Below, piece by piece: positions 1,361 to 34,622 of a DNA stretch of 64,000 nucleotides. Position 1 is the first letter of the stretch, and each line of letters begins with the position of its first letter. The DNA comes from Azonexus sp. (GTDB lineage Bacteria; Pseudomonadota; Gammaproteobacteria; Burkholderiales; Rhodocyclaceae). The translations under genes and the position numbers were made by a program. Below the pieces are notes generated by a model. The model made no database searches and had not been told where the DNA came from. It was given only the letters and a program-made list of their open reading frames with translations. The stretch lies in contig JAUYEI010000128.1 of assembly GCA_030691385.1 (NCBI GenBank), positions 1 through 64,000 of the forward strand, read 5' to 3'.

Positions 1361-1367
1361 TACTCAG

Positions 1368-1437
1368 GCCCAACGTTCAAGGTCAGGAGCGGTGCGCGGC
1401 TTTATCGCGCAGCGTCCCCTGCACCGCAGAGTTGGGC
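1368..1437 (-). other. attC recombination site
   Basis: GCCCAAC at 1368-1374 and GTTGGGC at 1431-1437 enclose GGTGCGCGGCTTTATCGCGC. The site is 70 bp. The glycosyltransferase stop codon at 1402 falls inside it. Confidence 0.9.
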
Positions 1438-17791: not shown

Positions 17792-18487
17792 TTACAGGCT
17801 GGCGCAGACTGTGTATTGCTGGCCCTCGACAATGTTGGCAGTCAATGTTGCTGCAGCGCCGCGCGCGGAACCCATTGGGACAGCCTGAACCGACCCACCT
17901 GCCGTATTGCCATCATCCATTGTCGTGTCGATTTGTCGAACATAGCGGCCAAGAATGCCTTCGGAGCAGACAAAGACAGCGCCGCGCATGCCGGCAATGA
18001 AGGGGGCTGCTACGCCTGCACCGCTGATGCCGCTTTCAATGCCAATAAAGCCGCCATCAGCGTTGCGAGGGCGGTAGTTTTGGTCGCCGGTGTTGATCGC
18101 TCCTGTCGCCAGATTGGCCAGGCGGACATGCTGCCAGAAGACAAAAGTCTCGTCGGTGACGGCAGCGGCATTCCAGTTGCCGTCGATGCGGCCATTGTTA
18201 CTGACGCACTGGCCAGCGGTATTGGCCGGGGCGCATGCCGTTGCATTAGCTGCTGCACCAAAGGCATCGGTCAGCTGCAACTGGGTCTGGTCTCCAGGAA
18301 AGCTCTTGAAACGATCCTGGTAGCCGTATACCAAGGCCGAAGTGGTCCTGAAGTCATTCACCATGTTTTTGACTTTGGCGCTGTTGATCAACTCCTGCCC
18401 CTTCAGAACGCCCCCCAGCAATAGGCCGATAATGACCAGGACAATGGCGATTTCGACAAGGGTGAAGCCTTTTTGATGGTGTTTCAT
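17792..18487 (-). CDS. Type IV pilin-like major subunit (prepilin)
   Basis: This 231-residue protein starts at the ATG at 18487 after GGAG. It has a class IVa-type prepilin leader MKHHQKG cleaved before FTLVEIAIVLVIIGLLLGGVL, with Glu5 present. The rest is a hydrophobic stalk and a globular domain containing three or four cysteines (ATACAPANTAGQC, FVCSE, YTVCASL). The SFPGD segment resembles other MSHA/PulG-like pilins. It lies apart from the assembly operon, across a histidine kinase and cyclase, and has its own sigma54-like promoter, suggesting it is the abundant regulated subunit. Confidence 0.88.
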   Translation of the reverse strand: MKHHQKGFTLVEIAIVLVIIGLLLGGVLKGQELINSAKVKNMVNDFRTTSALVYGYQDRFKSFPGDQTQLQLTDAFGAAANATACAPANTAGQCVSNNGRIDGNWNAAAVTDETFVFWQHVRLANLATGAINTGDQNYRPRNADGGFIGIESGISGAGVAAPFIAGMRGAVFVCSEGILGRYVRQIDTTMDDGNTAGGSVQAVPMGSARGAAATLTANIVEGQQYTVCASL

Positions 18488-18518: not shown

Positions 18519-18536
18519 CCGCAAATTTCGTGCCTA
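18519..18536 (-). promoter_or_regulatory. Putative sigma54 (-24/-12) promoter of the pilin gene
   Basis: The minus strand reads TAGGCACGAAATTTGCGG, with GG and GC elements 10 bases apart and GGCACG-N4-TTGC matching the RpoN consensus. The -12 element is about 34 bp from the start codon at 18487, leaving room for the GGAG ribosome site. Confidence 0.8.
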
Positions 18537-18615: not shown

Positions 18616-20298
18616 ATGAACACCGGGATAGTTGGCAAAATTGCCAGCCGCCTGGCTGGCTGGCCGCATTTCCTGTTGGCCGCCCATTTGCTGATGCTGC
18701 ACACGCTGGCATTTGGTGGCTGGAAAATCCCAGCCGTTCGCCTGCTATGGGTGGTTGCTCTCGGACTTTTCCTGATCTGGCAACCCTTTGTTGCCGGCGA
18801 GCGCCGAATCGAGTTGCGGCAAGGCGTTGTGCTGCTCGGCGTGGTTCTGGTGTCGACGTTGTTGCTTGGGCCATGGCTGCTCTTGATCTGGTGTGGCGCG
18901 CTGGCCGCGGCTATCGGCGGGCGGGTGCTGGGGACCGAAAGGCCTACCGAGCGTTCGGGTTATCTCCTGGCTTTTGGCTACCTGGTGAGCATTACCGTTC
19001 TGGGCGTGGTCCCGGAAATCTCCCCGGCTGTCGCCATCGACCCGCTGTTGCGCGGGCTGCTTGCCCGCTTCATGCCGCTGGTTCTGCCATTCCTGCTGAT
19101 TTTTCCGGCGCGGGCGCCTGAGCGAAAATCCGGCGAGGCCTTCGATCTGTTCTATGGGGTCATGGTTTTCCTCGTCCTTGCCGTTTTCGTGCTCGGTACA
19201 CTGGCCTACATGCTGGTCGGCGGGGGGGGCTATGTCGAGGCCCTGTTCAAGACTTCGCTGGCGGTTGCCGGCGCCTTGCTCGTGGTCGCCTGGGCGTGGA
19301 ATCCGCGCGGTGGCTTTTCCGGTATCGGCTCGGCGATTTCACGTTACATGTTGTCGCTGGGCATGCCTCTCGAGCAGTGGCTGGTGCAGCTTTCGGAGGA
19401 AAGTGAGCGGCATACCGATCCGGCGCGGTTTCTCGACGCGGTCATGCAGCGTTTGCGTGGCATTCCCTGGGTTGTCGGCGTCTCGTGGCGTACGGGAGAG
19501 CGAGCGGGGCAATCCGGTGAACAGACCATCTCCGCACATACCTACCAGGCGAACGAACTTGAGCTCTCGGTCCATTTTCATCATTCACCCTCGCCGGCCA
19601 TGCGCTGGCATGTCGAGTGGCTGCTGCGACTGGCTGTCGAGTTTTATCTGGTCAAACTACAGACGTATCAGTTACAGCGCATGGGTTATGTTCAGGCCAT
19701 CTATGAAACCGGTGCGCGGGTGACGCACGACGTGAAGAATCTGCTCCAGTCCTTGCAAACCCTTTGCTATGCCGCGAATCAGCCGGGTGATCCAGCCGAG
19801 GTGGCGGCCTTGCTGGGCCGACAGTTGCCGCAAATCGCCGATCGCCTGAAAGCGACGCTGGATAAATTGCAGTCGCCACAAATCGAGAGTCTGGAACAGG
19901 TTGAGGCCTGTTCGTGGTGGCGCCAGTTCAAGGAGCGCAATAGCCATTTGCCGGTTGATTGGCAGGGCGAGGCCAGCCCTGGTCAACTCTTGCCGGGACC
20001 CCTATTCGACAGCGTGGCCGAGAATCTGTTGCAGAACGCGCTGGCCAAACGCTTGCGCCAACCGGGCCTGGGTATTAGCGTACTTTTTGCCGAGGGCAGA
20101 CTGACAGTCGCCGATGACGGCCTGGCCATCGCAGCCCCCTTGGCCGGTGCCTTGCTCAAGGAGCCGGTCAACTCCGAAGACGGTTTGGGAATCGGTTTGT
20201 ATCACGCCGCACGGCAGGCCGACGGGGTGGGCTATTCGCTGGTCCTGGCTGAAAATCGGCCGGGATGCGTTGCATTTACGCTGTCGGTTTGCCACTAG
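18616..20298 (+). CDS. Membrane sensor histidine kinase (PilS/PrsK-like)
   Basis: This 560-residue protein has about seven hydrophobic segments up to about residue 225, then a cytoplasmic linker and a kinase core. The H-box is ARVTHDVKNLLQSLQTL, the N-box FDSVAENLLQNALAKRLR, and the ATP-lid SEDGLGIGLYHAARQ. The HDVKNLxxxL form of the H-box resembles PrsK-type kinases. No response regulator is adjacent. The nearest candidate is the NtrC-family regulator heading the pilus operon at 36 kb. It converges on the cyclase gene, with 23 bp of 3' overlap. Confidence 0.85.
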   Translation: MNTGIVGKIASRLAGWPHFLLAAHLLMLHTLAFGGWKIPAVRLLWVVALGLFLIWQPFVAGERRIELRQGVVLLGVVLVSTLLLGPWLLLIWCGALAAAIGGRVLGTERPTERSGYLLAFGYLVSITVLGVVPEISPAVAIDPLLRGLLARFMPLVLPFLLIFPARAPERKSGEAFDLFYGVMVFLVLAVFVLGTLAYMLVGGGGYVEALFKTSLAVAGALLVVAWAWNPRGGFSGIGSAISRYMLSLGMPLEQWLVQLSEESERHTDPARFLDAVMQRLRGIPWVVGVSWRTGERAGQSGEQTISAHTYQANELELSVHFHHSPSPAMRWHVEWLLRLAVEFYLVKLQTYQLQRMGYVQAIYETGARVTHDVKNLLQSLQTLCYAANQPGDPAEVAALLGRQLPQIADRLKATLDKLQSPQIESLEQVEACSWWRQFKERNSHLPVDWQGEASPGQLLPGPLFDSVAENLLQNALAKRLRQPGLGISVLFAEGRLTVADDGLAIAAPLAGALLKEPVNSEDGLGIGLYHAARQADGVGYSLVLAENRPGCVAFTLSVCH

Positions 20299-21598
20299 GC
20301 TGCGGTTCTCGCAAGCCATTCAATCGATAAACGAGCGTATTGCCCTTGCCTTTTAGGTGGAGCGCCTGTGGTTCATCGAATGAAAAGTGCTGCGCCAGCC
20401 GCAGGTAGGTGGTTGCATCGACATGGATCATTCCGGGGGTGCCTTCGCTGGTGATCCGGCTGGCGATATTGACAGTGTCGCCCCACAGGTCGTAGATGAA
20501 TTTCTTCTTGCCGACGACACCGGCGACGACCGGCCCGGTACCGATGCCGATACGAACGTCAAGATGCATGTCGTTGACCGTGAAGTCGCGATGCAGCAGG
20601 TCGCGCATGGCGATGGCCAGTTCGGCGATGGACCGGGTGTAGTTGGTCTGCTCGTTGTTCAGGCCGCCGGCAACCATGTAGGCGTCGCCAATGGTCTTGA
20701 TTTTCTCCATGCCATATTGCTCGGCCAATTCGTCGAAAGACGAAAATATCCGGTTGAGCATGGAAAAGACCTGCTGTGGTGTCAGCCCTTCGGCGATACG
20801 TGTGAAATTGACGATATCGACGAACATGATCGTAACGTCGGCAAAGCCATCGGCGATGGCCTGGTTGTCATGCTTCAGGCGTTCGGCAATGGGGCCGGGC
20901 AGGATGTTCAGGAGCAGGCGTTCGGAGCGACCCTGTTCGTCCTGCAACAGGCGGTGGGTCTCTTCGAGGCTGGCTTGTGTCTTGGCCTTTTCCTGGACGG
21001 CGTAGCGCAGCAGCAGATAAACGATGCTGGAAATGGCAGCGAAATTGAGCGCGAAGAAAAAGACGCTGGTCCGGATCGAAATATTCGGGGCACTGCTGAC
21101 CAGGCTGTCGGCCAGGAAGTAGTCGAAGAAGCCGGATAGCGCCGTCAGGAAAATATAGGCAAAGAACCACGCCAGCGATTCACGAGCCCCGAAGAACAGC
21201 ACGGCGCCGATTGGGGCGAGCAATCCCCACAGGCTGGTGCCGCTGGCCGTGATGAAGTTGCCGATGCTCCACTGCACGGCGAACGGTGCAAACAGGAAGA
21301 GGGCTAGCTGCGAATAGCGAAAGAGGTCGAAATTGCCACTGCGAAAGTAGTAGAGCAGGTTGCCAACGAGCAGCAACTGGAAAACGAAGGGCGCATTGGC
21401 CGAAAACTGCGGTCCCATCTGGCCATAAAGAAAAAGCCAGAGCATTGAGCCGGCACAAACCAGGCCCGTGGCGAATACCAGCAGCGACTTTTTCAGGCGC
21501 GTTTCGGCATCGTCTTCCGGAAGAACTCCACCGGTACGCAGGGCGACAAGGAATGGCTGCTGGCTCACGGGACTCGCTGATAACGACGGGGTTGGCAA
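20276..21598 (-). CDS. Class III adenylate/guanylate cyclase with membrane domain
   Basis: This 440-residue protein has an N-terminal region of about six hydrophobic segments (residues 35-205), a short helical linker (LEETHRLLQDEQGRSERLLLNILP) and a C-terminal class III cyclase domain. That domain has the metal-binding MFVDIVNFTRIAEGL, GDAYMVAGG, GIGTGPVVAGVVG and DLWGDTVNIASRI. It probably makes cAMP. It is the last gene of the minus-strand pilus operon, 65 bp after a minor-pilin gene. The start is uncertain: TTG at 21598, with a GTG ten codons later. Confidence 0.88.
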   Translation of the reverse strand: MPTPSLSASPVSQQPFLVALRTGGVLPEDDAETRLKKSLLVFATGLVCAGSMLWLFLYGQMGPQFSANAPFVFQLLLVGNLLYYFRSGNFDLFRYSQLALFLFAPFAVQWSIGNFITASGTSLWGLLAPIGAVLFFGARESLAWFFAYIFLTALSGFFDYFLADSLVSSAPNISIRTSVFFFALNFAAISSIVYLLLRYAVQEKAKTQASLEETHRLLQDEQGRSERLLLNILPGPIAERLKHDNQAIADGFADVTIMFVDIVNFTRIAEGLTPQQVFSMLNRIFSSFDELAEQYGMEKIKTIGDAYMVAGGLNNEQTNYTRSIAELAIAMRDLLHRDFTVNDMHLDVRIGIGTGPVVAGVVGKKKFIYDLWGDTVNIASRITSEGTPGMIHVDATTYLRLAQHFSFDEPQALHLKGKGNTLVYRLNGLREPQPSGKPTA

Positions 21599-21663
21599 TT
21601 CGGCTCAGTTTGGCAGTCGGCTGACTGCCGGTCAATATGCCAAAGGGTTGACTGGGGGCTTGC

Positions 21664-22419
21664 CTAGGGGAGTTTGCCGACGGCAACCAGGCGCGATTTG
21701 AGCACGGTGGGGATGATCCAGGTGAGCAGATCGTCGAAATTTTCGGTGGGCGTGTGGGCGATGAAGGTCAGATCAGCATCGGCATTTTCGGCTTCGTCGC
21801 CAATTGCGCCGGGTAACTGGGCGCCGTTTGGCTGGTAGGCGCCGACGCCTCGGCTGCCGTGGCTGACGATGACGGCTGGGACATCAGACGCAATGACCAG
21901 TCCGTTGTCCATGACGTTGGCAGTGCCCGCGTTGTCGGCTGGCACGGCGGTAGCGCTTCCCGTCGAGAGGGTGAAGCTGGCCTGGGCATCGGCCGCCAGG
22001 GCCGCGGTGAATTTGGCGCTGACAAAATAGGTAAAGCGATTTCCCCACGGGTCGGTCTCGGATAAGCCCAGCGTCACCCAGGGGACGACACCAAAACGCA
22101 AGTCGTCTGCACACGGCGGTGTGCGTGTCCTTCCTGCTGCAGGATCGGTGTTGGGCAGGTTGGCGGGGGCCGGGCAGGGCAGGCGTCCGTTCGTCATGGC
22201 GTAGCCGATCAGGGCTTCCCGAATGGTTTCCAGCTGCTGCCGGGCTTCCTTGCTCTGGATTTGCTCGCGCTGGCCCGACAGGCCGAACATGAGACCGCCG
22301 GCCAGCAGGGCGACAATGACCAGTACGATGGTCAGTTCGACAAGGGAAAAGCCTCCGTGCTGCGCCGGTGTGCTCAGGGAGTGGCGGAAGGTGACAGGCT
22401 TAGTAGGCAAGGTGGTCAT
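21664..22419 (-). CDS. Minor pilin-like protein with prepilin leader
   Basis: This 251-residue protein starts at the ATG at 22419, which overlaps the preceding gene by 20 bp. The leader ends QHGG before FSLVELTIVLVIVALLAGGLM, a prepilin peptidase site with Glu5. The globular part contains GRLPCPAP, GVVPWVTLGLSETDPWGNRFTYFV and DLLTWIIPTVLKSRLV, a motif set shared with the large protein encoded just upstream. It is a likely minor pilin or priming subunit of the MSHA-like pilus. Confidence 0.82.
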   Translation of the reverse strand: MTTLPTKPVTFRHSLSTPAQHGGFSLVELTIVLVIVALLAGGLMFGLSGQREQIQSKEARQQLETIREALIGYAMTNGRLPCPAPANLPNTDPAAGRTRTPPCADDLRFGVVPWVTLGLSETDPWGNRFTYFVSAKFTAALAADAQASFTLSTGSATAVPADNAGTANVMDNGLVIASDVPAVIVSHGSRGVGAYQPNGAQLPGAIGDEAENADADLTFIAHTPTENFDDLLTWIIPTVLKSRLVAVGKLP

Positions 22420-24676
22420 TAAACGAGGGGCTAACGGTTTCGGCAACGAAACGGGGTGTTGGCGCCAGAGCGTCGCCATTGCGTGACAGATCGCCATTGC
22501 CTTTTTCCAGATAGTTGCGAACATCGTTGCTTGGCCGAGGCTGCGAGGATAAAGCGCGACCGGCGCCGATGACAACTGCACGGTAGTTGCCGACGCCATT
22601 GACGGTCAGCGTGCCGCTTAGTGGCCGGACTTGTGCGCTGATCTGGTAGAAAAACAGGGTTTTCCAGTTGCCTTGCGTCCACCAGTTGCCTTGGCTGCTG
22701 GTCGGCGTCAGAAAGGCGCATTCGGCGCTGGACCAGCGGGTCGGGATGGCGGCCTGGGCGAAACCTGTCCGCAAGCTGTCATCGAGCGCATCGGCAGCAG
22801 CGATCAAGGCGTTCAGGCGGTAACGCAGGTTGGCGATGGCGGCTGCAATCTCCTCGCTACTGGAAGTTGCATTCCCCAGTACCGCGATGGCGCCGCCGCT
22901 GCCAGCGAGGCTGTTCAGCAATTGGCTGGCCGCTGCGTAGGCTGAACTGTCGCGGTTTTCCAGAGCGACCTGTCCGCCGACGATTCCCTTGCGTGCCTTG
23001 CCGGCGAGGTCGGGCGTCAGTTCGATGGCAATCGAAATCCAGGCCTGCAGAATATCGATCGTTTTGGCCAGTTCGCGCGCAGCGGTCACCTTGGCAGGGG
23101 CGGTGTTCTGTGCCGTGGCGAGTAAATTGATCGCAGCGGTGATCGATTCGAGTGCGATATTGTCTGCAGTGCTGCCAGGTGTTGCTGCTGTGCGACTGGC
23201 CAGCACGACAGGTTCGATGGCTTGGCTTGCTGTCAGCAAGGCTACTGTGTCCGCTCTGGCTTGTGCGACGGCTTCACTGGAAAGTTGCTTCCAGGCTGTA
23301 TTCAGGCTGCTGACTGCCGATGTGGCCCGCGCATGGGTGCTCGAAATTGCGCTTTCGATGGCGAGATCAGAGGACTGGCTATTCTCCAGCAGGCCATTTC
23401 TCAATGGGGTAACCGCATCCAGAACCGTTCGGACCTGCGTGCTGGTCGGCTGAGCGGGAAGCTGAGAAAGTTTGCTCTCGATGTTCTGGTTCAACGGAAT
23501 CAACTTGCCGACGAATAGGTCGAAGCCGCTGTCGGCGAGCGCCGTCCGGAATGCGTCGAGTGTGGCCTGGTTGGCCGTGATGGCGGTAGGAATGGTTTGC
23601 GACAGTGCGCTGTAGCTCTCCTTGCTGGCGGTGGCTGTATCGAAAATGCCTTCCAGTTCAGCCAGGCTTTGTCCAGCACGGAAGGCAGAATCGTACAGGG
23701 CGACGGCGGCCAGGAAAATGCGGTCGTAAAGTGCCATTGCCTTGGCTGCCTCGGCCTGCAGCGCCGACAAAGTACTGGTTGTCGGTGTCTGTGCCTGCGC
23801 CAGGGTTGTTTGCAGTTCGCGCAAGCTAAGGGTCGAGCCCTGCAGTGCCTTCTCCGGGTTGCCGGGCTGGGTGTCAGGGACCATGCCGAATAGTGATCCG
23901 ATGAAACCGGGGGCATTGGTAATGCGCGTTGTCGCATTTGCTGTATTGGTCAGCACTTGTTCGGCGATACGGGAAAACGGGGCTGGCCACGGGTAGGTGT
24001 TCGTGCTTCGGGAATGTTGCTCGAGGCAGGTGCGGAGTTCGTTGGCAATGCGCTGCTCGACTGCGGCCATCAATTCCTGGCGGGTGATGGCGATGACGAT
24101 GTCGTTGTCGTTGGAGGTGCTGAGTTCGTTCGTGCGGTCATGGTTGTAGAAATAGTCGTTGCCATCGGCATTGCGGGCATCCGGTACGCCGCGGGTGGCG
24201 ATGATGATGGCGGCAATGTCGTTGCTGTTGCTGCCGGCCGGAACATCAAGACGAAGCGTGGTTGGGGTTTCGCTGTTGAGGACGACGTTGGCGTTCTGGC
24301 CGCCGAAGGCCGGAGTCATGTGGTAGCGGAATTTTCCGCCTTGCGGGTCGGAGTTTTCGCTCAGGTCGAGTGTTTTCCACGGCAACCAACCGCTATAGCT
24401 GTCGCAGTCGTCACGAGATAACAGCGGAGAATTGCCATCGCCGATCAGGTCGGGGCAGAGCAGTCGTCCAGGCCGCGTGGCGTCGTTCACGGCGTGGGCG
24501 ATGACCGCTTCCTTGGCGCGGGCCAGGCGCTGCATGACGGTGTCGCGTTCCTGGTTCTGGGTGCCGTCGAGATTGCTGCTGCGATAGAAGGCATAGCCTC
24601 CGGCCAGCAGGAGCATGACGAGTAGGGCGATCAGAGCAACGCCCCTCTGCGCGGAGGGTGGGGCGCGGCGTTTCAT
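22400..24676 (-). CDS. Large pilus-associated membrane-anchored protein
   Basis: This 758-residue protein starts at the ATG at 24676 (MKRRAPPSAQRGVALIALLVMLLLAGGYAFYRSS). The track ORF extends 124 codons too far upstream. One N-terminal membrane helix is preceded by RG, like PilX-type minor pilins but without FTLxE. A domain with RLLCPDLIGDG ... GWLPWKTLDLSENSDPQGGKFRYH parallels the next gene. The long central part (about 300-700) is Ala/Ser/Thr-rich and mostly helical. Its role is probably pilus tip or anchoring, an inference from context. It overlaps the upstream small gene by ATGA. Confidence 0.72.
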   Translation of the reverse strand: MKRRAPPSAQRGVALIALLVMLLLAGGYAFYRSSNLDGTQNQERDTVMQRLARAKEAVIAHAVNDATRPGRLLCPDLIGDGNSPLLSRDDCDSYSGWLPWKTLDLSENSDPQGGKFRYHMTPAFGGQNANVVLNSETPTTLRLDVPAGSNSNDIAAIIIATRGVPDARNADGNDYFYNHDRTNELSTSNDNDIVIAITRQELMAAVEQRIANELRTCLEQHSRSTNTYPWPAPFSRIAEQVLTNTANATTRITNAPGFIGSLFGMVPDTQPGNPEKALQGSTLSLRELQTTLAQAQTPTTSTLSALQAEAAKAMALYDRIFLAAVALYDSAFRAGQSLAELEGIFDTATASKESYSALSQTIPTAITANQATLDAFRTALADSGFDLFVGKLIPLNQNIESKLSQLPAQPTSTQVRTVLDAVTPLRNGLLENSQSSDLAIESAISSTHARATSAVSSLNTAWKQLSSEAVAQARADTVALLTASQAIEPVVLASRTAATPGSTADNIALESITAAINLLATAQNTAPAKVTAARELAKTIDILQAWISIAIELTPDLAGKARKGIVGGQVALENRDSSAYAAASQLLNSLAGSGGAIAVLGNATSSSEEIAAAIANLRYRLNALIAAADALDDSLRTGFAQAAIPTRWSSAECAFLTPTSSQGNWWTQGNWKTLFFYQISAQVRPLSGTLTVNGVGNYRAVVIGAGRALSSQPRPSNDVRNYLEKGNGDLSRNGDALAPTPRFVAETVSPSFNDHLAY

Positions 24677-25038
24677 TTCGTGCCGCGCTTTATGTCGATG
24701 CGGCCGCTGCCGATCACGCTTTCGCGCTCGCCGGTGGCCGGATTGAAGGTGTCGCCGACCGGCACGCGGGGCGGCGGTGCCGTGCCGTCCCAGTTGGCTT
24801 CGCCGTTGATCCAGCGGATGCTGCGGCCATCGCTGCTGCGGACTTCGCCGTTGATGGTCTGGCTGGCTTCGCTGTTGCCGACATTGGGCTGGAAGCCGGG
24901 GTTGTGCTGGCGCTGGAGGTCGAGCCTGGCTCTTTGCTGCGGGTCGAGGAAGAGGCGGCCGAGCGGTGCTTCTTCGCCCAGGCCGGGGGCGTTGGCCGAG
25001 CACAGCAGCAGGAGGGTGAGCAGGCGGATCCGGTTCAT
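24673..25038 (-). CDS. Small exported protein in the pilus operon (MshK position)
   Basis: This 121-residue protein has a signal peptide (MNRIRLLTLLLLCSANAPGLG) and a periplasmic part rich in charged and Gly residues (LDPQQRARLDLQRQHNPGF, INGEVRSSDGRSIRWINGEANWDG). The INGEV...WINGE pattern resembles small secretion-system proteins that contact the secretin. It occupies the MshK position after the MshJ-like gene and overlaps both neighbours by 4 bp. Function is inferred only from location. Confidence 0.65.
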   Translation of the reverse strand: MNRIRLLTLLLLCSANAPGLGEEAPLGRLFLDPQQRARLDLQRQHNPGFQPNVGNSEASQTINGEVRSSDGRSIRWINGEANWDGTAPPPRVPVGDTFNPATGERESVIGSGRIDIKRGTK

Positions 25039-25637
25039 TTTTTGTCACTCGCCGGACGAATGGTCAGCCACTGCATTTCGCAATCGGCTCCGAACTGGGC
25101 CATGGCGGCGCGGCCATCGGCCTGGCGCGGCAAAGGCGAGAGCTTGCAGGCGCGTACGATGACCAGGGCCTTGGCATTTTTCTCGATGCGGGCGAGGAAG
25201 TTGATCAAGTCCTCTTCGTGCAGCAGGCGGAGCTGCAGGCGCAGCGGGCTGCTGAACCAGGCGTAGCTGGCGTCGTCTGCCTTGTCCAGGCTGGTCTGGG
25301 CGCCGAACTCGTAGCTCATGCCCGGGATGCGCAGTTCGCGCTGCGTTTCGCGGAGCATTTCCATCCAGTCGAGGCGTTTTTCGTCGCCGCTGATGCCGGA
25401 ATTTTGCAGTTGCTGCAGGCGTTGTGTGCGCTCGCGGATTTCCTGTTCTTCGGTGCGGACCTGGCGCAGACGTTGTTCGATCTGGTTTTTGGCCGTCATT
25501 GCTGCGTTGCGTTCGTGCTCGGCCTTGCCGGCGTCGAACTGGCTGCCCCAGACGAGCAGGCTGGCGACGGCAATCATGGCCAGCGCGGCGAGCAGGGGGA
25601 GCCAGAGTTTCGGGAGATCGCGGCTGGTCAGTTTCAT
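25035..25637 (-). CDS. mshJ: MSHA biogenesis MshJ-like (PilO/GspM-type) protein
   Basis: This 200-residue protein has an N-terminal membrane helix (LPLLAALAMIAVASLLVWG), a coiled-coil stretch (KNQIEQRLRQVRTEEQEIRERTQRLQQL) and a small periplasmic ferredoxin-like C-terminal domain (LRLQLRLLHEEDLINFLARIEK), the PilO/GspM layout. It would form part of the inner-membrane alignment complex with the MshI-like protein. Both ends overlap neighbours by 4 bp. Confidence 0.75.
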   Translation of the reverse strand: MKLTSRDLPKLWLPLLAALAMIAVASLLVWGSQFDAGKAEHERNAAMTAKNQIEQRLRQVRTEEQEIRERTQRLQQLQNSGISGDEKRLDWMEMLRETQRELRIPGMSYEFGAQTSLDKADDASYAWFSSPLRLQLRLLHEEDLINFLARIEKNAKALVIVRACKLSPLPRQADGRAAMAQFGADCEMQWLTIRPASDKK

Positions 25638-27142
25638 GGCGCGACGTTCCGGACGATTTCGACGGCAAACTGCCGGGGCTGGGTTTCTTCATCCAGCCCG
25701 TCGCCGCCGCGCAGGGCTCGCCCTGATTCGATGTCGAAGGGGCGTTGCAGGACGTTGATGGTGTTGGCGGGGTCGGCGCGCAGCGCGTCGACAAATTGAT
25801 CGAAGACGGCCAGGGTTTGCCGGGTCGTCGCCCGCTCAAGATGGATGGAGCCGCGGACGGTGGTGATTTCCGGCTCGCGGCCAGGCACTCCCACGGTCAA
25901 CCGGAAATTTTGCCCAAATTTCCAATCGATGCCTTCGAGAACGATGGCCGGCATGCGGTCGAGAACGTGGCTGATCATGCGATAGCTCGGTGTCGGCTGG
26001 CGTTGCTGGGCGAGCAGCTCGCCGTAGCGGCCGGTCACGCGGCGCAGTGTGTTGTTGTCCATGCCGAGCTGCGGAAAGGTCGCCGAGATTTCCTGGTAGC
26101 GCCGGCTGAAATCGGCTTCGCTGGCCGCCAGCGCCCGGGCCTCGGCGCGCAGGTCACTGGCCTTGTAGGTTTCCTTGGCGGCGAACAGGACGCCGCCGAG
26201 CAGGGCGATCAGTCCGGCCGCGAAGAGGCCGTGGCGGATTTGCGCCAGGCGGAAATGGTGGCGATGTGTTTCGTCGGCAAACTGCTGGGCGGGCGGCGCC
26301 GTTGCCAGCAGGTGCAGGAAGAGCTGGTCGCTGCGGTTGTCGGCGGGCAGTGTGTGCAACTTGAGCTTGTGCGCGGCGACATGGCTGTCGATCAGCGTGA
26401 AGTTCAGCTTGCTGTGTTCCGGGCAGGCCTTTTCGATGGACGGAATGGTCAGCGGATGGGCGACGATGAAAGCGGGCAGGCCTTCGTCGCGCCCGATCAG
26501 GCGCTGACCGATCAGGTATTGGTGCAGTTTGCCCGCTTCGGCGGCAAAGGCGCTGGCGATGCCGGCGATGCTGCTGTCGGTGAGCGGCGCCATACGCGAG
26601 AAATGGGCGTGGCCGTCAACCAGGTAGGTTTCGCGGATCGAGTGATCCTGCAGGGTGAGCAGCAGGCAGCGGCCGCTGTCCTGTCCCAGCTTTTTGAGCA
26701 ACTGGCCGCCCAGTTGGGCCACCGTGTAAATGCCGGCCAGCGGCACCTCGGCATCGCCGATCCGGCGCAGCCATGGCTCGAAATGGGCCGGGTTGGTCAG
26801 GGCGGAGAGCAGCAGCTTTTCGTTCTTGCGCTGGCTTTTTTCGTAGCCCAGAGACACCGCCGCGGCCAGTGGTGTGCCGAGAAAATGCTGGCCGATCTTG
26901 CGGGTAATCAGTGTTTGCCGGTCGCCGCCCTGCAGGAAAGGGATGGTTTCCAGGGCATGGCCTTCCTCGGCGACATTGGCCAGCAGCGAGAACTGGCTGC
27001 TGCTGTGCTCCCTGAGATATTCGGCGAATTGCTGCAGGCCGCCCTCGTCGTTGTCGAACACCCCCTCGGCGCGCAGCTTGCCCTGCTGCCAGGCATGGGC
27101 CGACAGGCGATGCGTGTTGAGATAGAGGAGGCGGCTGCTCAC
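25634..27142 (-). CDS. mshI: MSHA biogenesis MshI-like (PilM/GspL-type) protein
   Basis: This 502-residue protein has an N-terminal actin-like PilM/GspL cytoplasmic region (to about residue 290), a membrane helix (LFAAGLIALLGGVLFAAK at about 305-322), a coiled linker and a periplasmic PilN-like domain. It therefore resembles a PilM-PilN fusion of the MshI/GspL kind. The 42-bp dispersed repeat lies antisense in the periplasmic domain, encoding FGQNFRLTVGVPG. It overlaps mshG and mshJ by 4 bp. Confidence 0.8.
   Translation of the reverse strand: MSSRLLYLNTHRLSAHAWQQGKLRAEGVFDNDEGGLQQFAEYLREHSSSQFSLLANVAEEGHALETIPFLQGGDRQTLITRKIGQHFLGTPLAAAVSLGYEKSQRKNEKLLLSALTNPAHFEPWLRRIGDAEVPLAGIYTVAQLGGQLLKKLGQDSGRCLLLTLQDHSIRETYLVDGHAHFSRMAPLTDSSIAGIASAFAAEAGKLHQYLIGQRLIGRDEGLPAFIVAHPLTIPSIEKACPEHSKLNFTLIDSHVAAHKLKLHTLPADNRSDQLFLHLLATAPPAQQFADETHRHHFRLAQIRHGLFAAGLIALLGGVLFAAKETYKASDLRAEARALAASEADFSRRYQEISATFPQLGMDNNTLRRVTGRYGELLAQQRQPTPSYRMISHVLDRMPAIVLEGIDWKFGQNFRLTVGVPGREPEITTVRGSIHLERATTRQTLAVFDQFVDALRADPANTINVLQRPFDIESGRALRGGDGLDEETQPRQFAVEIVRNVAP
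25887..25928 (+). repeat. Dispersed 42-bp repeat inside the mshI-like gene
   Basis: ACTCCCACGGTCAACCGGAA then ATTTTGCCCAAATTTCCAATCG lies antisense to the gene and in an open frame. The first 20 bases match the consensus exactly. Confidence 0.88.
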
Positions 27143-28338
27143 GTTTTGATCTTGCTGATGACGTCGTAAATGGGGCCGATGACCGACAGCATAATCCAGC
27201 CGAGCAGGGCGCCCATGAAAAGCGTCAGCATCGGCTCGATCAGCGCCTGCGCCTTGCCGACCGATTCCTTGACGTCGCGGTTGTAGAAATAGCTGACGTT
27301 GAGCAGCGCCTTGTCCAGTCCGCCGGTGCTTTCACCGATGCGCAACATGCGTACGACGAGTGGCGGAAACATGCCGACATCGCGGAAGGCGCCGGCCACA
27401 TTCTGACCTTCGCGGATCGATTGCTCGACCCGCTCGAGCGCCTTCTGGACGACACGGTTGCCGACAATGGCTTGAGTGGTGCGGATCGACTCAAGTACCG
27501 GGATGCCGGAAGCGTAGAGCATGGCGAACGTATTGGCGAAACGGGAGAGGATGATTTTTTTGAGGATCGGGCCGATGACCGGTAGACGGAGTTTGATGCC
27601 GTCGAGGCGGAAGCGCGCCAGCGGGTTGGTGCGCAGGACCGCCTGCAAGGCGATGACGGCGATGATCGGCAAGGCGAGAAAAACAAACCAGTAGTTGACC
27701 AGCAGATCGGAGATGAAAAACAGCAGCTTGGTGTGCGGCGGCAAAACCTGCCCCATGTTCTTCACGAACAGCTTGAGCTGCGGAACCATGTAGATCATCA
27801 GGAAGAAGGTGGCGGAGAGCACGATGGTCGCCACGAAGGCCGGGTACATCAGCAGCTTTTTCGTGTGCGAGGCCAGTTCGTCTTCCCATTTCAGTGACTC
27901 GGACAGGCTGGCCAGCACATCCGGCAACTGGCCGCTCGCCTCGCCGGCGCGGATCAGGTTGCAGAAGACCTGGCTGAAAACTTCCGGGTGGGTGTTCATG
28001 GCCTGCGACAAGGTCTGGCCGCCTTCGATGCTTTCGATCAGCCCGGCCATCACCTCGCGGAAGCGGGGGTGGTCGACCGAGTCGCGCAGATCGGTCAGCC
28101 CTTCGAGGATGGGGACGCCGGCCCGGGTCAGGTGTTCGAGGTGAAAGCAGAAATTGATCAGCTCCGGCCGCGGCACGCGCTGCCCGCCAAACAGGGCGCG
28201 ATGCTGGATCGGCGAACCGTTGACCAGATCGAGATTCATGCGCTTCAAACGCATTTCGAGGTCGACCAGATTGATCGCATCGAGTCGTCCGTAGGTCATC
28301 CGACCTTCCACGCTGACCGCCTTGTAGTCGAACAACAT
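27139..28338 (-). CDS. mshG: Type II secretion/type IV pilus inner-membrane platform protein (MshG/PilC family)
   Basis: This 399-residue protein has two T2SSF domains separated by membrane helices. The first includes ELINFCFHLEHLTRAGVPILEGLTDLRDSV and the second LSRFANTFAMLYASGIPVLESIR. Helices lie at about residues 170-190, 210-230 and 370-390. It is the polytopic platform through which the ATPase drives pilin assembly. It starts at the ATG at 28338, 7 bp after mshE, and overlaps mshI by 4 bp. Confidence 0.92.
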   Translation of the reverse strand: MLFDYKAVSVEGRMTYGRLDAINLVDLEMRLKRMNLDLVNGSPIQHRALFGGQRVPRPELINFCFHLEHLTRAGVPILEGLTDLRDSVDHPRFREVMAGLIESIEGGQTLSQAMNTHPEVFSQVFCNLIRAGEASGQLPDVLASLSESLKWEDELASHTKKLLMYPAFVATIVLSATFFLMIYMVPQLKLFVKNMGQVLPPHTKLLFFISDLLVNYWFVFLALPIIAVIALQAVLRTNPLARFRLDGIKLRLPVIGPILKKIILSRFANTFAMLYASGIPVLESIRTTQAIVGNRVVQKALERVEQSIREGQNVAGAFRDVGMFPPLVVRMLRIGESTGGLDKALLNVSYFYNRDVKESVGKAQALIEPMLTLFMGALLGWIMLSVIGPIYDVISKIKT

Positions 28339-28345
28339 GGCGCGT

Positions 28346-30052
28346 CTACATCCGGTCGGTCAGGTCGACGACGCGGGCCAGTTCTTCAAGCGAAGTCGTG
28401 CCGTTCAGCACGCGGTGCATGCCGTCGTCGGCCAGCGTGGTGAAGCCCTGGAGCAGCGCCCGCGAGCGGATCTCGTGGGTGGTGGCGCGGCGGGCGATCA
28501 GTTCGTCGATGCCGGCATCGATGCGCAGCAGTTCCATGATCGCGATGCGGCCGCGGTAACCCTGGAAATCGCACAATTCGCAACCGGTGGCGCGGAACAG
28601 CACCGGGCGCGGACCTTCGCCCAGTTCGCCGAGCAGCCGGATTTCATGCGGTTCGGCGTGATACGGTGACTTGCAGTGATCGCACAGGCGGCGAATCAGG
28701 CGCTGGGCGATGATGCCGATGATGTTGCCGGCCATCACGTCGGGCAGCACGCCGATGTCGAGCAGGCGCGGCACGGCGCCGATGGCCGAATTGGTGTGCA
28801 GGGTGGTGTACACCTGATGCCCGGTCATCGCCGCGCGGAAGGCCATTTCGGCCGTTTCCGCATCGCGCACTTCGCCGACCAGGATGACGTCCGGGTCCTG
28901 GCGCATCATCGAGCGGATGCCGTTGGCGAAATCGAGTTTGGCGGTTTCCGAGACCGAGGTCTGGCGAACCATCGCCATCGGGTATTCGACCGGGTCTTCG
29001 AGGGTCATGATGTGGATGCCCTCGGAATTGATGTGATTGAGCACCGAGTACAGCGTCGTCGTCTTGCCGCTACCGGTCGGCCCGGTGACGAGGATGATGC
29101 CCTCGGGCCGCGAAATCATCAGCTTGAGCTGGTGCAGGTGTTCCTCGGCCAGACCGAGATTTTCCAGCGGCACGATGCCTTTTTGCCGGTCGAGAATGCG
29201 CAGGACGATGTTTTCGCCGTGAATGGTCGGCTGGCTGGCGACCCGGAAGTCGATCGGCCGGCCGGACACGGTGAGGCTGATCCGGCCATCCTGCGGCGCC
29301 CGCATTTCGGCGATGTTCATGCCGGAAAGCACCTTGATGCGCACCGTCATGGCCGGCCAGTAGGACTTATGCAGGGCGCGGATCTGGCGCAGCATGCCGT
29401 CGATGCGGTAACGGATGCGCAGGAAATTGGCTTCGGGTTCGAAATGGATGTCCGAGGCCTCGCGCTTGACCGCATCGGTCAGGATCGAATCGATCAGGCG
29501 AACGACCGGCTGGCTGTACTCGTCGTCGGTGGCGGACAGGCTCTGCCAGTCGATTTCGCCGGTTTCGATCTCGTGCAGGATGCCGTCGATCGACAACTCA
29601 TGGCCGTAATACTGGTCGATGGCGTGGTCGATTTCCGATTCGCCGCCGAGCAGGGTTTCAATTTCGGTGCCTTCTTCCAGTTGACCGCGCACCCGGTCGA
29701 GACCAACGATGTCGTTGATGTCCGAAATGGCCAGCGTCAGGCGGCGGTTCGGGCGGTCGTAGTCGAGCGGCAGCAGGTGGTGGCGTTTGGCCATGTCGCG
29801 CGGCACCAGCTTGAGCGCCTGCGGGTCGACGACGGCGTGCGACAGGTCGATGCTCTGCTTGCCGAGATTCTCGGACAGCGCCTGGCGCAGCGTAGCCTCG
29901 GTGACGAAGCCAAGCGAAACCAGCAGCTTGCCGATCGGCTGGTTCTGCTTCATTTGCTCGAGCAGCGCGATGCGCAACTGATCTTCCGACAGGATGCCTT
30001 CGGAAATCAGGATCTGGCCGAGTGGCCGGCGCTGGAGGGCGGAAGTGCTCAT
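28346..30052 (-). CDS. mshE: Pilus assembly ATPase (MshE/PilB/GspE family)
   Basis: This 568-residue protein starts at the ATG at 30052 (MSTSALQRRPLGQILISEGIL). It has an N-terminal MshEN domain of the kind that binds cyclic-di-GMP in relatives, then the ATPase core: Walker A GPTGSGKTTTLYSVL, Asp box and Walker B (RQDPDVILVGEVRD), His box (TGHQVYTTLHTN). A zinc-binding tetracysteine (CDHCKSPY ... CELCDFQG) is near the C-terminus. It powers pilus extension. It is followed by mshG with a 7-bp gap. Confidence 0.93.
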   Translation of the reverse strand: MSTSALQRRPLGQILISEGILSEDQLRIALLEQMKQNQPIGKLLVSLGFVTEATLRQALSENLGKQSIDLSHAVVDPQALKLVPRDMAKRHHLLPLDYDRPNRRLTLAISDINDIVGLDRVRGQLEEGTEIETLLGGESEIDHAIDQYYGHELSIDGILHEIETGEIDWQSLSATDDEYSQPVVRLIDSILTDAVKREASDIHFEPEANFLRIRYRIDGMLRQIRALHKSYWPAMTVRIKVLSGMNIAEMRAPQDGRISLTVSGRPIDFRVASQPTIHGENIVLRILDRQKGIVPLENLGLAEEHLHQLKLMISRPEGIILVTGPTGSGKTTTLYSVLNHINSEGIHIMTLEDPVEYPMAMVRQTSVSETAKLDFANGIRSMMRQDPDVILVGEVRDAETAEMAFRAAMTGHQVYTTLHTNSAIGAVPRLLDIGVLPDVMAGNIIGIIAQRLIRRLCDHCKSPYHAEPHEIRLLGELGEGPRPVLFRATGCELCDFQGYRGRIAIMELLRIDAGIDELIARRATTHEIRSRALLQGFTTLADDGMHRVLNGTTSLEELARVVDLTDRM

Positions 30053-30059
30053 GGTGCGG

Positions 30060-31313
30060 TCAGCGCTGCAGCCCGGGTTGCAACTCGCCCAGACGTTGCT
30101 CGACCTTGTCGCGCGCGAAGCCGGCCGGGCGTCTGGCCGACGCTTCCAGGGCCAGCCGGTAATGCTGGGCAGCGAGGCGCGCTTGGCGCAGGTGATCGAG
30201 GCTGACCGCCAGGTTGAACAGGTAATCGGGGTTGTCGCCATCGGCGGCCACGGCGTTGAAATAGACCTGCTGGGCCTCGGCCCAGCGGGCCTGGCGAGAA
30301 TACAGATTACCGAGCGCAAAATTGAGCGGCGCCGATTCGGGCTGGCTGGAGAGCAGCGACTTCAGGCGGCTTTCTGCGGTGTGCGGATCGGCGTTGGCCG
30401 ACAGGTTGTTGAGGACGGCCGCCTGTGCCGCCGGATCGCTCGGGTTGGCGACCAGCGCCCGCTGGCGCAAACCGTCGGCGTCCGCAGTGCGCCCCTGGCG
30501 ATGAGCGATGGCGGCCAGGGCGAGCAGGGCATCGGTGTTGTTCGGATCGCGTTGCAGCGCCTGTTCGAACTCCCGGCGCGACATTTCGGTTTCGCCGCGT
30601 TGCAGGCTGGCGTGACCACGCGCCAAGTTGGCGTCAGGCTCCGGCTGGGTGCGCGTCAGGCGAATCCGGGGGGCGGCCTCTGTTTCGCCATCGGGCGCGT
30701 ACATCGGTGCCGGGCGCGCCTCGCGTCGCGGGAAAAGCGGGGGCGTGGCCGGTTCGGGAGTGACTCCCACGGTAGACCGGAAAAAAGGGGCAAAATCAGA
30801 AGGCGGGGCGGGCTGCACCGCCGGCGCCGCCCGGGGTGGCGATGGCTGGGCTGGCTGCGTCATCGCCGCTGGTGCGCCAGCGGCCAACGACCCACGGTTC
30901 ATCGCGTTCATCTGATACCAGACATAGCCACCGATGGCGATACCGGCAACGCCGAGCGTGCCCAGTGCTGCCCAGAGCGGCAGCCGCGAAGGTGTCGCAG
31001 CGGCTTGTTTGGCGGCAAAGGCATTGCGCACGGCTTCGCGTTGTTCGGTCGGCCTGGCTTGTGGTGTCTCACTGGCTTGGATAGCGGCCGGGCGGGGCTC
31101 GGGAAGCGCTGACCTGGCCAGTTCGGCGTCGACTGCCGCCAGGTGCGAGGCAAGGTCCGGCAGCGGATTGGCGGCGCCTTTGCCCGGTTCGGATGTGATC
31201 GGTTCCAGGCTGAGCAGGTCGCTGGCTGTTGGCAACAGCCCACCCTGCGAGTTGCGGGCCGATTCCTGCTTGGCATTTTCTGCCCGCTTCAGGGCATCCA
31301 TCAGCAGGCTCAT
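30060..31313 (-). CDS. mshN: TPR protein of the pilus operon (MshN-like)
   Basis: This 417-residue protein has the conserved N-terminus MSLLMDALKRAENAKQE, a Pro/Ala-rich region, a single membrane helix (PLWAALGTLGVAGIAIGGYVWY at about 134-155), a second Pro/Ala-rich linker, and TPR repeats from about residue 225 to the end (LARGHASLQRGETEMSRREFEQAL, LLALAAIAHRQGRTADADGLR). A 42-bp dispersed repeat lies antisense in the linker, giving FAPFFRSTVGVTPEP. It probably scaffolds the secretin or assembly complex. It lies between mshL and mshE. Confidence 0.8.
   Translation of the reverse strand: MSLLMDALKRAENAKQESARNSQGGLLPTASDLLSLEPITSEPGKGAANPLPDLASHLAAVDAELARSALPEPRPAAIQASETPQARPTEQREAVRNAFAAKQAAATPSRLPLWAALGTLGVAGIAIGGYVWYQMNAMNRGSLAAGAPAAMTQPAQPSPPRAAPAVQPAPPSDFAPFFRSTVGVTPEPATPPLFPRREARPAPMYAPDGETEAAPRIRLTRTQPEPDANLARGHASLQRGETEMSRREFEQALQRDPNNTDALLALAAIAHRQGRTADADGLRQRALVANPSDPAAQAAVLNNLSANADPHTAESRLKSLLSSQPESAPLNFALGNLYSRQARWAEAQQVYFNAVAADGDNPDYLFNLAVSLDHLRQARLAAQHYRLALEASARRPAGFARDKVEQRLGELQPGLQR
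30763..30803 (+). repeat. Dispersed 42-bp repeat inside the mshN-like gene
   Basis: ACTCCCACGGTAGACCGGAA then AAAAGGGGCAAAATCAGAAGG lies in the disordered linker of the TPR protein, antisense to the gene. One two-base change (TCAA to TAGA) departs from the core. Confidence 0.85.
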
Positions 31314-31322
31314 GCGCAGCCC

Positions 31323-33128
31323 TCAGCGGCTCGGGGTGATATTGAAGGGCTGGGCTTCATTCGGCTGAGCAAAGAAATTTTGCCCGGGAAGATGGTCGCG
31401 CAAGGCTGCGAAGTCACCTTCGAGGCTGGCGTCTTTGATGACGACGGGGCGCAGGAAAATGACAAGTTCGGATTTTTTGGCAGTGTTTTCTCGACGTGTC
31501 GCGATTTCGCCTGCTAGTGGAATTTGCCCAACCAATGGGATGCGACCGGTGTCGTAGCTGATCTTGTCCTCCATCAGGCCGCCAAGTACCGCTATGTCTC
31601 CACTGGAGACTCGCATGACTGACTCAATTTCCCTGGTGCGAATAACAGGAACGCGGTTTTCGATAGTGAGGCTTGGGTTTGGGTCTCTAACCGTTCCAGC
31701 TAGCGAAGTGATAGTGGGGCGGATGTTTAGTGTCACTACGTCACTGTCGCTAATCTGCGGCGTTACACCGACGACCAAACCAATTGACACCGTCTGAGGT
31801 GTAGTTGTGTAGGTGGTGACACTGGCGACATTTGCTGAGGTGGTGGTGTCGGCCTTGACGTTGAAATATACGTAGTTTTCAACAACTTTTAGGAGGGCGG
31901 TTTGATTGTTGAGAACCGACAGGCGTGGGCTAGACAGTACTTTGACCGTACCGAAAGATTGCAATAGATCTACTGCGGCAATCAGGTCAGCGGGCTTTGT
32001 TAGTACGAGATTTGCTGTCGAGGCAAAGCTAGTTGCGTTGCCCGGAGCTAACATCCTGAATTCTCTGTTGCCACTCAAGAATCGATTCCATTCGATGCCT
32101 TGTTTGTAGCCATCAGACAACTCAACTTCGACAATGGTAGCCTCAATCAAAACTTGTTTTTTCGCCGAGTGAACTACACGGTCGACAAACTCCTGGATCC
32201 GCTCATGCTGCCGCTGGGTGGCGCGCACGGTTATGACGCCGCTTTCAGCGTTCATGATGACCGATGCCGCTTCCCGGAAGGTGCTGCGGCGCTCAATGGA
32301 GGTGCCGGTCGCCTGGCTGGCCGAGTTCGGATTGGGGTTTGCCTGCAAGGCGTTGGCAATCGACTGGGCGGCACGCTGCCCGACTCCCTGAGGCAGGGCG
32401 GCGGTACCGGTGGCGGCTTGCGCAGTGGATCTTTCTATGACGGTTTCGCTCGATCCTTCCGGGAAAACCTTGTCGGTTTCGCGCAGGATGTCCTTGATGT
32501 TCTTTTCCAGCGAATCCCAGAACTGATTGCGGGAGGTGTTTTCAATGCGTGTGTTGGAAATGTTGCCACCGCCGCTCGTGGAGGGTGCGCTTGTGCTGCC
32601 CGTGCTCCCCGTGCTCCCGCCCGGGGTTCCGGTGGCGATCTGGGTGTTGGTCGAAACGGTGCCCGTGACGTTGCGCGCCATGTTCACGTAATCGACCTTG
32701 TAGTGCTTGAGGAAGGGCGAGTCGGGCATGACGGCGAGGTTGGGGCCATCCAGTTCGAAGCGCATGTCGACTTGCTTGGAAATCCGGGTCAGCAGTTGCG
32801 GCAAGGTCTGGTCGATGGCGTTCAGTGTGACCGTGCCGGTGATGCCGGGGTGTATGTCGACATTGACCTTGGCGTCGCGGGCCAGGGCAAAAAGCAGGTC
32901 GCGAACCGGAACATTATTGACGACGACGCTGTAGGTTTCGGCCTTGCGGGTGGTGCGCGGCTTGGGTAGGGCCAGTGTTTGCTGGACCGGGGCAGGAATG
33001 TTCGCGGCGGCTGATGGCGCCGTGCTTTCGGTATTGAGATGCCCCTTCAGCGGTTCGCGCGGGGTGGGTGCCGCACAGGCGGCCAGCAGGAAAGAGACGA
33101 GCGTTGTGCAGATGAAACCGATTTTCAT
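31323..33128 (-). CDS. mshL: Pilus secretin MshL
   Basis: This 601-residue outer-membrane secretin has a lipoprotein-type signal ending LLAACA and a secretin/TonB short N-terminal domain (VVVNNVPVRDLLFALARDAKVNVDIHPGITG). A low-complexity Gly/Ser/Thr segment follows (GSTGSTGSTSAPSTSGGG at about 195-212), then the C-terminal secretin barrel (VEVELSDGYKQGIEWNRF, VLSSPRLSVLNNQTALLKV, EIESVMRVSSGDIAVLGGLM). It forms the pilus exit pore. The 3' half (about 31.44-32.17 kb) is visibly AT-richer than the 5' half and neighbours, possibly from recombination with foreign DNA. Confidence 0.93.
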   Translation of the reverse strand: MKIGFICTTLVSFLLAACAAPTPREPLKGHLNTESTAPSAAANIPAPVQQTLALPKPRTTRKAETYSVVVNNVPVRDLLFALARDAKVNVDIHPGITGTVTLNAIDQTLPQLLTRISKQVDMRFELDGPNLAVMPDSPFLKHYKVDYVNMARNVTGTVSTNTQIATGTPGGSTGSTGSTSAPSTSGGGNISNTRIENTSRNQFWDSLEKNIKDILRETDKVFPEGSSETVIERSTAQAATGTAALPQGVGQRAAQSIANALQANPNPNSASQATGTSIERRSTFREAASVIMNAESGVITVRATQRQHERIQEFVDRVVHSAKKQVLIEATIVEVELSDGYKQGIEWNRFLSGNREFRMLAPGNATSFASTANLVLTKPADLIAAVDLLQSFGTVKVLSSPRLSVLNNQTALLKVVENYVYFNVKADTTTSANVASVTTYTTTPQTVSIGLVVGVTPQISDSDVVTLNIRPTITSLAGTVRDPNPSLTIENRVPVIRTREIESVMRVSSGDIAVLGGLMEDKISYDTGRIPLVGQIPLAGEIATRRENTAKKSELVIFLRPVVIKDASLEGDFAALRDHLPGQNFFAQPNEAQPFNITPSR

Positions 33129-33239: not shown

Positions 33240-34622
33240 CTAGCGTAACTTGCTGACCTGCCTTGGGAAAGGCTGGGCTGCCTTGATTGATTCCGGCAGG
33301 GTCTGCATGGCTGCAACGGCCTCTTCACGGCTGTCGTAATCACCAAAAATAACGCCGACCCGATCTCGCCCGGAAAGGCTGGAGCGGTAGGCGCGAATCT
33401 GCGATGCGTCGAGTACGGCTGTCGCACGATTGAGAAAGCCTTCTATCTCCCCTGTCTGCGATGCGTCAGTGGCCAGTAGCTGGATGAAATAATGATTGTT
33501 TGGGGCATCCGCGATCCACTGGTCATACTGACTGAAATGCTGGCGAGTCAGAGGGGCGAAGCGGATTTTGTCCGGCGTGCTTGCGGGGGCTTGGGCGTCG
33601 GCGCGCAAGCTTAATGCTTGCAGGCGCTTGCCGGGTTGGGCGGCTTGCTGGGGTTGAGGCGCCAAGGGGGGCGGGGCGTTGCCGGGATCGGCCTCCAGGA
33701 AGGCATGAGGAGGCGAGCCTGCGATCAGTGCAGCGAGCAGGGCAACAACGCCGGCGCCGGTCACTCCCCAAAGCAGCGGTTTGGGGTTGAAGGGGGCTTG
33801 GGGTTTTAGCGGTGAAAATCGCGCATCCTGCGCCGCAATCTTGATTTCACTGCTGCCTACTTGATGGGTGCCGCTGGAATAGGCGGCAAGCAGCGCCTTG
33901 TCGGCAAGAATGTTGATGCGTCGCGACAAGCCTTCCGAGATTTTCGTAATCATTGTCACCGCTTCGGCGGTGAAAGGATTGGGCCCGTGGTACCCGGCGG
34001 CGCGCAGGCGAAATTCGATGTAGGCCGCGACGTCGTTCTGTTTGAGTGGCGCCAGGTTGAAATGTTGGGTAATTCGCTCACGGAGCTGGCGCATGTCAGT
34101 GGCGGCGAGGCGCTCATCCAGTTCAGGCTGGGCGAAGAGCGCGATCTGCAACAATTTCGCGGCTTTGGATTCGAGGTTGGAGAGCAGGCGGATTTCTTCG
34201 AGCGATTCGGCGGGCATCGCATGCGCTTCGTCGATCAGCAACACGACGCGCTTGCCCCCGGCGTAACGCTCGATCAGGGCATCCTGCAAGGCGCGGGTCA
34301 GCGAGTGCGTGGCCTTGCCCTCGACCGGAACGCCAAGTTCGTCGGCTATGGCGCCAAGTATTTCCTGTCGGGATAGCGACGGGTTGGCCAGGTAAAGTGT
34401 TTCGACGTTCTCGGGCAGACGTTCGAGCAGCATCCGGCAGAGCATGGTCTTGCCGCTGCCGACTTCGCCGGTGACCTTGACGATGCCTTCGTCCTGCGTG
34501 ATGGCATAGATCAGGGCGTCGAGCGTCGGCCCCCGGTTCGCCCCGGTAAAGAAAAAGTCGGTGTGCGGCGTAATCCGAAACGGTGGCTCGCGCAGGCCGA
34601 AGTGTTCGAGGTAAAGGCTCAT
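33240..34622 (-). CDS. mshM: MshM/ExeA-like AAA ATPase with C-terminal SPOR-like domain
   Basis: This 460-residue protein begins [25 protein letters not shown], the ExeA/MshM signature. An AAA domain follows with Walker A GEVGSGKTML and Walker B VVLLIDEAHAMP. A membrane helix is at about residues 285-303 (LLWGVTGAGVVALLAALIAG), then a Pro/Ala linker and a SPOR-like peptidoglycan-binding end (NHYFIQLLATDASQTGEIEGFL, GVIFGDYDSREEAVAAMQTLP). It probably helps the secretin cross the cell wall. It overlaps the regulator gene by ATGA and is 111 bp upstream of mshL. Confidence 0.88.
   Translation of the reverse strand: MSLYLEHFGLREPPFRITPHTDFFFTGANRGPTLDALIYAITQDEGIVKVTGEVGSGKTMLCRMLLERLPENVETLYLANPSLSRQEILGAIADELGVPVEGKATHSLTRALQDALIERYAGGKRVVLLIDEAHAMPAESLEEIRLLSNLESKAAKLLQIALFAQPELDERLAATDMRQLRERITQHFNLAPLKQNDVAAYIEFRLRAAGYHGPNPFTAEAVTMITKISEGLSRRINILADKALLAAYSSGTHQVGSSEIKIAAQDARFSPLKPQAPFNPKPLLWGVTGAGVVALLAALIAGSPPHAFLEADPGNAPPPLAPQPQQAAQPGKRLQALSLRADAQAPASTPDKIRFAPLTRQHFSQYDQWIADAPNNHYFIQLLATDASQTGEIEGFLNRATAVLDASQIRAYRSSLSGRDRVGVIFGDYDSREEAVAAMQTLPESIKAAQPFPRQVSKLR

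Follow-up and report, generated by a model that had tools for sequence, protein, structure and literature searches.

A Cya-type adenylate cyclase gene within the MSHA-like pilus locus of Azonexus sp. and other Rhodocyclaceae: conserved linkage and a possible functional alliance

The window analysed in this study, a 64,000-nucleotide stretch of DNA from the freshwater bacterium Azonexus sp. (assembly GCA_030691385.1, contig JAUYEI010000128.1), contains an MSHA-like pilus cluster whose genes all lie on the minus strand. The cluster is headed by a sigma-54-dependent response regulator of the NtrC type (34619..36046; PF00158 E=2e-61, PF00072, HTH_8), followed in order by an MshM-like AAA ATPase (33240..34622; PF13401 E=2e-30, with a weak SPOR domain), an MshL-like secretin (31323..33128; PF00263 E=3e-34, PF07655 Secretin_N_2 E=5e-8), an MshN-like protein recognized by TPR families (30060..31313), an MshE-like extension ATPase with an MshEN domain (28346..30079; PF00437 E=1e-124, PF05157 E=1e-13) and an MshG-like inner-membrane platform protein (27139..28338; PF00482 T2SSF E=5e-52). 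The MshE-like ATPase additionally carries the MshE-related c-di-GMP motif NF053729 above its cut-off. Several features of an MSHA locus, namely an MshEN ATPase together with a secretin, a GspF-type platform and AAA and TPR proteins, are thus found in one cluster. The MshI-like (25634-27142), MshJ-like (25035-25637) and MshK-like (24673-25038) genes that follow overlap one another (24673..27142) and encode proteins without a Pfam family, so these names were given only by position, with size and synteny in support. The next gene (TYPQ, 22400..24676) encodes a large protein with a pilin-like N-terminus, GVALIALLVMLLLAGG, read from the sequence; it has no Pfam match and is fast-evolving yet syntenic. 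The msh run ends with PIL1 (21664..22419), a prepilin-like minor pilin gene (PF07963 N_methyl E=9e-5; TIGR01710 GspG-like E=7e-9), and the adenylate cyclase gene comes last (20276..21598).

On the other side of the cyclase lies a convergent gene for a probable sensor histidine kinase (18616..20298, plus strand), the two genes overlapping by 23 bp. This kinase has no Pfam match and only a weak match to PrsK (TIGR02916, E=4.5e-6, far below the cut-off); H-box- and ATP-site-like motifs were found in it by eye, and the gene is syntenic in relatives. Beyond the kinase and divergent from it lies PILA2 (17792..18487, minus strand), a pilin presumed to be the major subunit, with the conserved N-terminus KGFTLVEIAIVLVIIGLLLGG and a Pfam match confined to the N-terminal methylation motif (PF07963 N_methyl E=3e-8). 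A sigma-54 -24/-12 promoter-like site, AGGCACGAAATTTGCG, was scored 33 bp before the PILA2 ATG (18520..18535, minus strand). Across 55 relatives, the best sigma-54 site before the pilin averages 17.4 vs. 13.5 for shuffled sequence; the site is conserved in most kinase-bearing relatives and falls to the control level in most kinase-less loci. Because the site tracks the presence of the kinase, the comparison suggests that the kinase and the NtrC-type regulator control PILA2. The kinase, the NtrC-type regulator and the sigma-54 site resemble a PilSR-like module, and in several relatives all three are jointly missing. Elsewhere in the window, a HrpA-like helicase ORF (5876-9982, plus strand) contains an in-frame proline/glycine-rich stretch (HPHPNPPL...GEG...) at approximately 7740-7882, which looks like an inserted intergenic repeat.

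The first-pass annotation had placed a class III membrane adenylate cyclase at the end of the pilus operon, 65 bp after the minor pilin gene and on the same strand, and had proposed that it may couple surface sensing by the pilus to cAMP in analogy to Pil-Chp/CyaB. The ORF was recovered as described, with 440 codons from a TTG and a 65 bp gap to the end of PIL1 at 21664. The TTG start itself is doubtful, since in an orthologue that is 91% identical the frame opens six codons downstream of the corresponding position. The first usable start of that orthologue corresponds to GTG 21568, which is probably the true start in the window as well, the TTG start then being wrong; the predicted protein would have 430 amino acids and the gap would widen to approximately 95 bp. 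All residue numbers below are counted from this GTG.

The identification as a class III membrane cyclase held. PF00211 covers residues 252-427 in a Pfam scan (E=3e-56, 190 bits vs. a cut-off of 21.9), and AlphaFold models of 26 orthologues have six transmembrane (TM) helices, the sixth continuing into a long helix that serves as a linker to the catalytic domain. These helices span residues 21-51, 58-77, 80-102, 111-125, 131-153 and 165-220 (mean pLDDT 78.8). D251, K291, D295, D360, N367 and R371 are identical in all 80 orthologues examined (63 from the family and 17 from outside it); we take D251 and D295 to bind metal, K291 and D360 to specify adenine, and N367 and R371 to stabilize the transition state, as in other class III cyclases. 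Since none of the six catalytic and adenine-specifying residues is missing, the enzyme is established at the level of sequence as a predicted catalytically competent cyclase for ATP. That the protein is instead a guanylate cyclase or inactive is very improbable: sequence-based calls of specificity can fail and its PDB sequence matches include guanylate cyclases, but the adenine-type Lys/Asp pair and the metal and transition-state residues are invariant across the 80 orthologues, and the structure that matches best over the full length belongs to an adenylyl cyclase. This match is Rv1625c/Cya (7yzk; 28% identity over 411 columns, E=2e-23). TM-scores against 7yzk are modest (0.41/0.46), probably from domain orientation, which is therefore uncertain in the model. 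The protein is best explained as a putative adenylate cyclase of the membrane, related in type to Rv1625c/Cya and acting as a homodimer. An identity of the CyaB/MASE2 type was ruled out because the Pfam scan at E<=0.001 found no MASE2 domain.

Within the genome carrying the window, a search confined to class I and PF00211 cyclases found no class I enzyme. The one other PF00211 protein (1033-1935, minus strand, on contig C106) combines a cyclase-like domain with an FHA domain; it was rejected as a second canonical cAMP source, as inspection by eye found neither the adenine-specifying pair nor the transition-state residues, including the Asn. The cyclase at the pilus locus may therefore be the main cAMP source of this genome. 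Eight cNMP-binding proteins are encoded, two of which belong to the CRP family and have cAMP-pocket-like motifs. Predicted CRP sites in the window were fewer than expected (6 vs. 18), with none above chance, and co-occurrence with the cyclase across genomes did not single out a CRP orthologue as the effector, the association being weak (p=0.02).

Alignment of the regions upstream of cyclase orthologues revealed a conserved promoter-like element, TTGACC-N17-CAAACT, at 21607..21635 (minus strand) in the window. The joint motif is present in 27 of 67 family orthologues vs. a mean of 0.18 and a maximum of 2 in 200 shuffles, and it occurs at both linked (18/46) and unlinked (9/19) loci; as a set, it was not seen in cyclase orthologues outside the family. 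In form the element is like a sigma-70 promoter whose -10 box is weak, matching at only 3/6 positions, and a generic promoter scan missed it for this reason. In the window, its spacer holds a perfect inverted repeat (GGCAGTC-AGCC-GACTGCC) that close relatives do not have. The conserved element implies that the cyclase could be transcribed independently, as is probably the case. Read-through from the pilus genes is also possible, since the gap between minor pilin and cyclase is short (median 82 bp; <=100 bp in 34/48 loci, with the two genes near-overlapping in some) and no terminator is predicted in the gap of the window.

The linkage between cyclase and pilus genes extends well beyond the window. 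Cyclase matches were found in 80 of 151 Rhodocyclaceae genomes, including Azonexus, Dechloromonas, Azospira, Accumulibacter and Sulfuritalea. Of 66 loci with a full-length cyclase, MshE and MshG precede it on its own strand at 48; at the other 18, some of them on short contigs, no msh genes precede the cyclase in this way within 15 kb. The kinase is present at 51 of the 66 loci and the pilin at 52. Where the msh genes have a different location, the kinase and pilin usually remain neighbours of the cyclase; at some loci without the kinase, the pilin is the next gene after the cyclase, in the same orientation. In cyclase-less relatives, PIL1 and PILA2 directly adjoin, forming an empty site. At one locus (L120, 9736-11392), the position that the cyclase occupies in other genomes, after the minor pilin and before the pilin, is taken by a different response regulator-kinase pair. 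The family cyclases form one clade (support 100/99) with the unlinked states scattered inside it; the linkage therefore looks ancestral, with several later separations. One genome (G105) has degraded copies of both the msh genes and the cyclase. The linkage is real and old, and it is probably functional; a survey of the linkage, which the first-pass annotation had proposed, thus showed it to be conserved across the family.

Co-occurrence of the two gene sets points in the same direction within the family, where an MshG orthologue accompanies 74 of 76 intact cyclases vs. 46 of 75 cyclase-less genomes (p=1e-8, a value that ignores phylogeny and genome size). Of the two exceptions, one (G042) has a diverged pilus-like cluster adjoining the cyclase and the other (G150) is an incomplete genome. 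The converse arrangement, MSHA genes without the cyclase, is found in 44-46 family genomes. As a control, a CRP homologue is not associated with MshG in the family (p=1.0). Additionally, one nearly complete genome of the same genus (G148) is without both the cyclase and MshG, a natural double loss. In other families of the order, 54 of 338 genomes carry the cyclase. At most of the loci inspected there it lies between ilvE/waaF and glnE (names given by eye from the protein sequences); one genome, G160, is an exception with a pilus-linked copy. Across the 338 genomes MshG is nevertheless present in 53 of 54 cyclase carriers vs. 107 of 284 others (p=9e-19), and the association persists when genera (21/21 vs. 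65/141 overall, p=1e-8) or families (13/13 vs. 33/50, p=0.002) are counted, all three values again ignoring phylogeny and genome size. The glnE-linked orthologues also allow the membrane domain to be compared: the conserved TM residues are the same as in pilus-linked orthologues, no pilus-specific TM residues were found, and only three positions diverge between the two groups, all in the catalytic domain. The similarity of the TM domains therefore does not suggest a pilus-specific ligand.

Combined, these results make it slightly better than an even proposition that the Cya-type cyclase, encoded in Rhodocyclaceae inside the pilus locus, after PIL1 and before PILA2, is functionally allied to the MSHA pilus. 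A somewhat unlikely alternative is that a general-purpose cyclase with its own promoter moved once into the locus in the family ancestor and was kept there by descent, having no special tie to the pilus. The promoter-like element shared by linked and unlinked genomes, the ilvE/waaF-glnE setting elsewhere in the order, the several independent separations from the msh genes and the membrane domain without pilus-specific residues would all fit such an incidental neighbour. It accounts less well for a linkage kept across many genera despite surrounding rearrangements, for the presence of MSHA genes in nearly all outside-family cyclase genomes although the genes are unlinked there, and for the joint decay in G105. 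A plasmid-borne origin of the cyclase was rejected, as no match was found in the plasmid collection.

A more specific model along the lines of the first-pass annotation, in which pilus genes and cyclase share a transcript and cAMP rises on surface touch or retraction of the pilus as in Pil-Chp/CyaB, appears improbable. The conserved linkage with its short or near-overlapping junctions, the gap without a predicted terminator and the co-occurrence with MSHA speak for it; against it stand the cyclase's own promoter-like element, a TM domain indistinct from that of non-pilus-linked orthologues, the persistence of the cyclase with kinase and pilin when the msh genes move, and a locus in which no chemosensory genes were found, PilJ-like genes and three PilT-family proteins being encoded on other contigs. 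Of the annotation's description as the end of the operon, the gene order stands, the next gene being convergent, whereas simple operon membership is weakened by the promoter-like element, the ilvE/glnE setting and the lack of pilus-specific TM positions. An independent promoter, no co-transcription and a lack of linkage in related genomes had been named together as evidence against the annotation's proposal; an independent promoter-like element is indeed present, but the linkage is kept.

Under the favoured alliance of cyclase and pilus, the cyclase would be expressed from a promoter of its own, probably supplemented to some extent by read-through from the pilus genes; it would make cAMP, and its membrane domain would receive a signal of a general nature, of the kind proposed for Cya. 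The cAMP may then act, by way of CRP-family regulators, on the attached way of life that the pilus serves, while c-di-GMP would act on MshE and the sigma-54 two-component pair would drive the pilin. With a general signal and a CRP route, the tie to the pilus would therefore be a shared programme and not necessarily direct contact sensing; from sequence comparison, a role of the cyclase in surface sensing is plausible. A bolder and rather doubtful extension is a dedicated MSHA-cAMP module across the order, with a Cya-type cyclase specific to the MSHA pilus, where cAMP, c-di-GMP (through MshE) and the sigma-54 pair decide attachment independently of Pil-Chp/CyaB. No description of a cyclase in an MSHA locus was found in the open literature searched. 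Cya-type cyclases with six TM helices are bacterial relatives of the mammalian membrane adenylyl cyclases, and the conserved genomic tie to MSHA provides a concrete setting in culturable bacteria such as Azospira oryzae DSM 21223 and Dechloromonas isolates. If true, the alliance would mean that coupling of cAMP to pili is not confined to Pseudomonas and can involve another cyclase and another pilus.

Several known systems resemble parts of this locus. In Pseudomonas aeruginosa, the PilS kinase and the NtrC-type regulator PilR control the pilin; the locus described here likewise has a kinase, an NtrC-type regulator and a sigma-54 site before the pilin gene, whereas its kinase weakly resembles PrsK and the regulator and kinase lie at opposite ends of the locus. 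With Mycobacterium tuberculosis Rv1625c/Cya (7yzk; PMC9433096), the cyclase has in common six TM helices, a helical domain, one catalytic domain and the catalytic residues; the Cya TM region has been proposed as a receptor for a ligand (PMC9433096). The two differ in sequence (28% identity) and in setting, the present gene belonging to a betaproteobacterium and adjoining a pilus locus. P. aeruginosa CyaB with Pil-Chp and Vfr (PMC12632253, PMC8787478) resembles the present case in that a piliated bacterium possesses a membrane-bound class III cyclase, with cAMP and a CRP-type regulator as a likely output, so that the analogy drawn by the first-pass annotation survives as a general idea; the two cases differ in that the present cyclase has no MASE2 match, its gene stands beside the pilus genes of an MSHA-like and not a Pil/Chp locus, and PilJ and the PilT-family proteins are encoded on other contigs. 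Finally, the MSHA system of Vibrio cholerae (PMC7096442, PMC9815625) has in common MshE with a c-di-GMP-binding MshEN domain, the MshL secretin, MshG, MshM and MshN. In comparison with that system, the pilins here are matched by their N-terminal motif only, the genes follow the order M-L-N-E-G-I-J-K, and the locus is flanked by a sigma-54 two-component pair and the cyclase gene.
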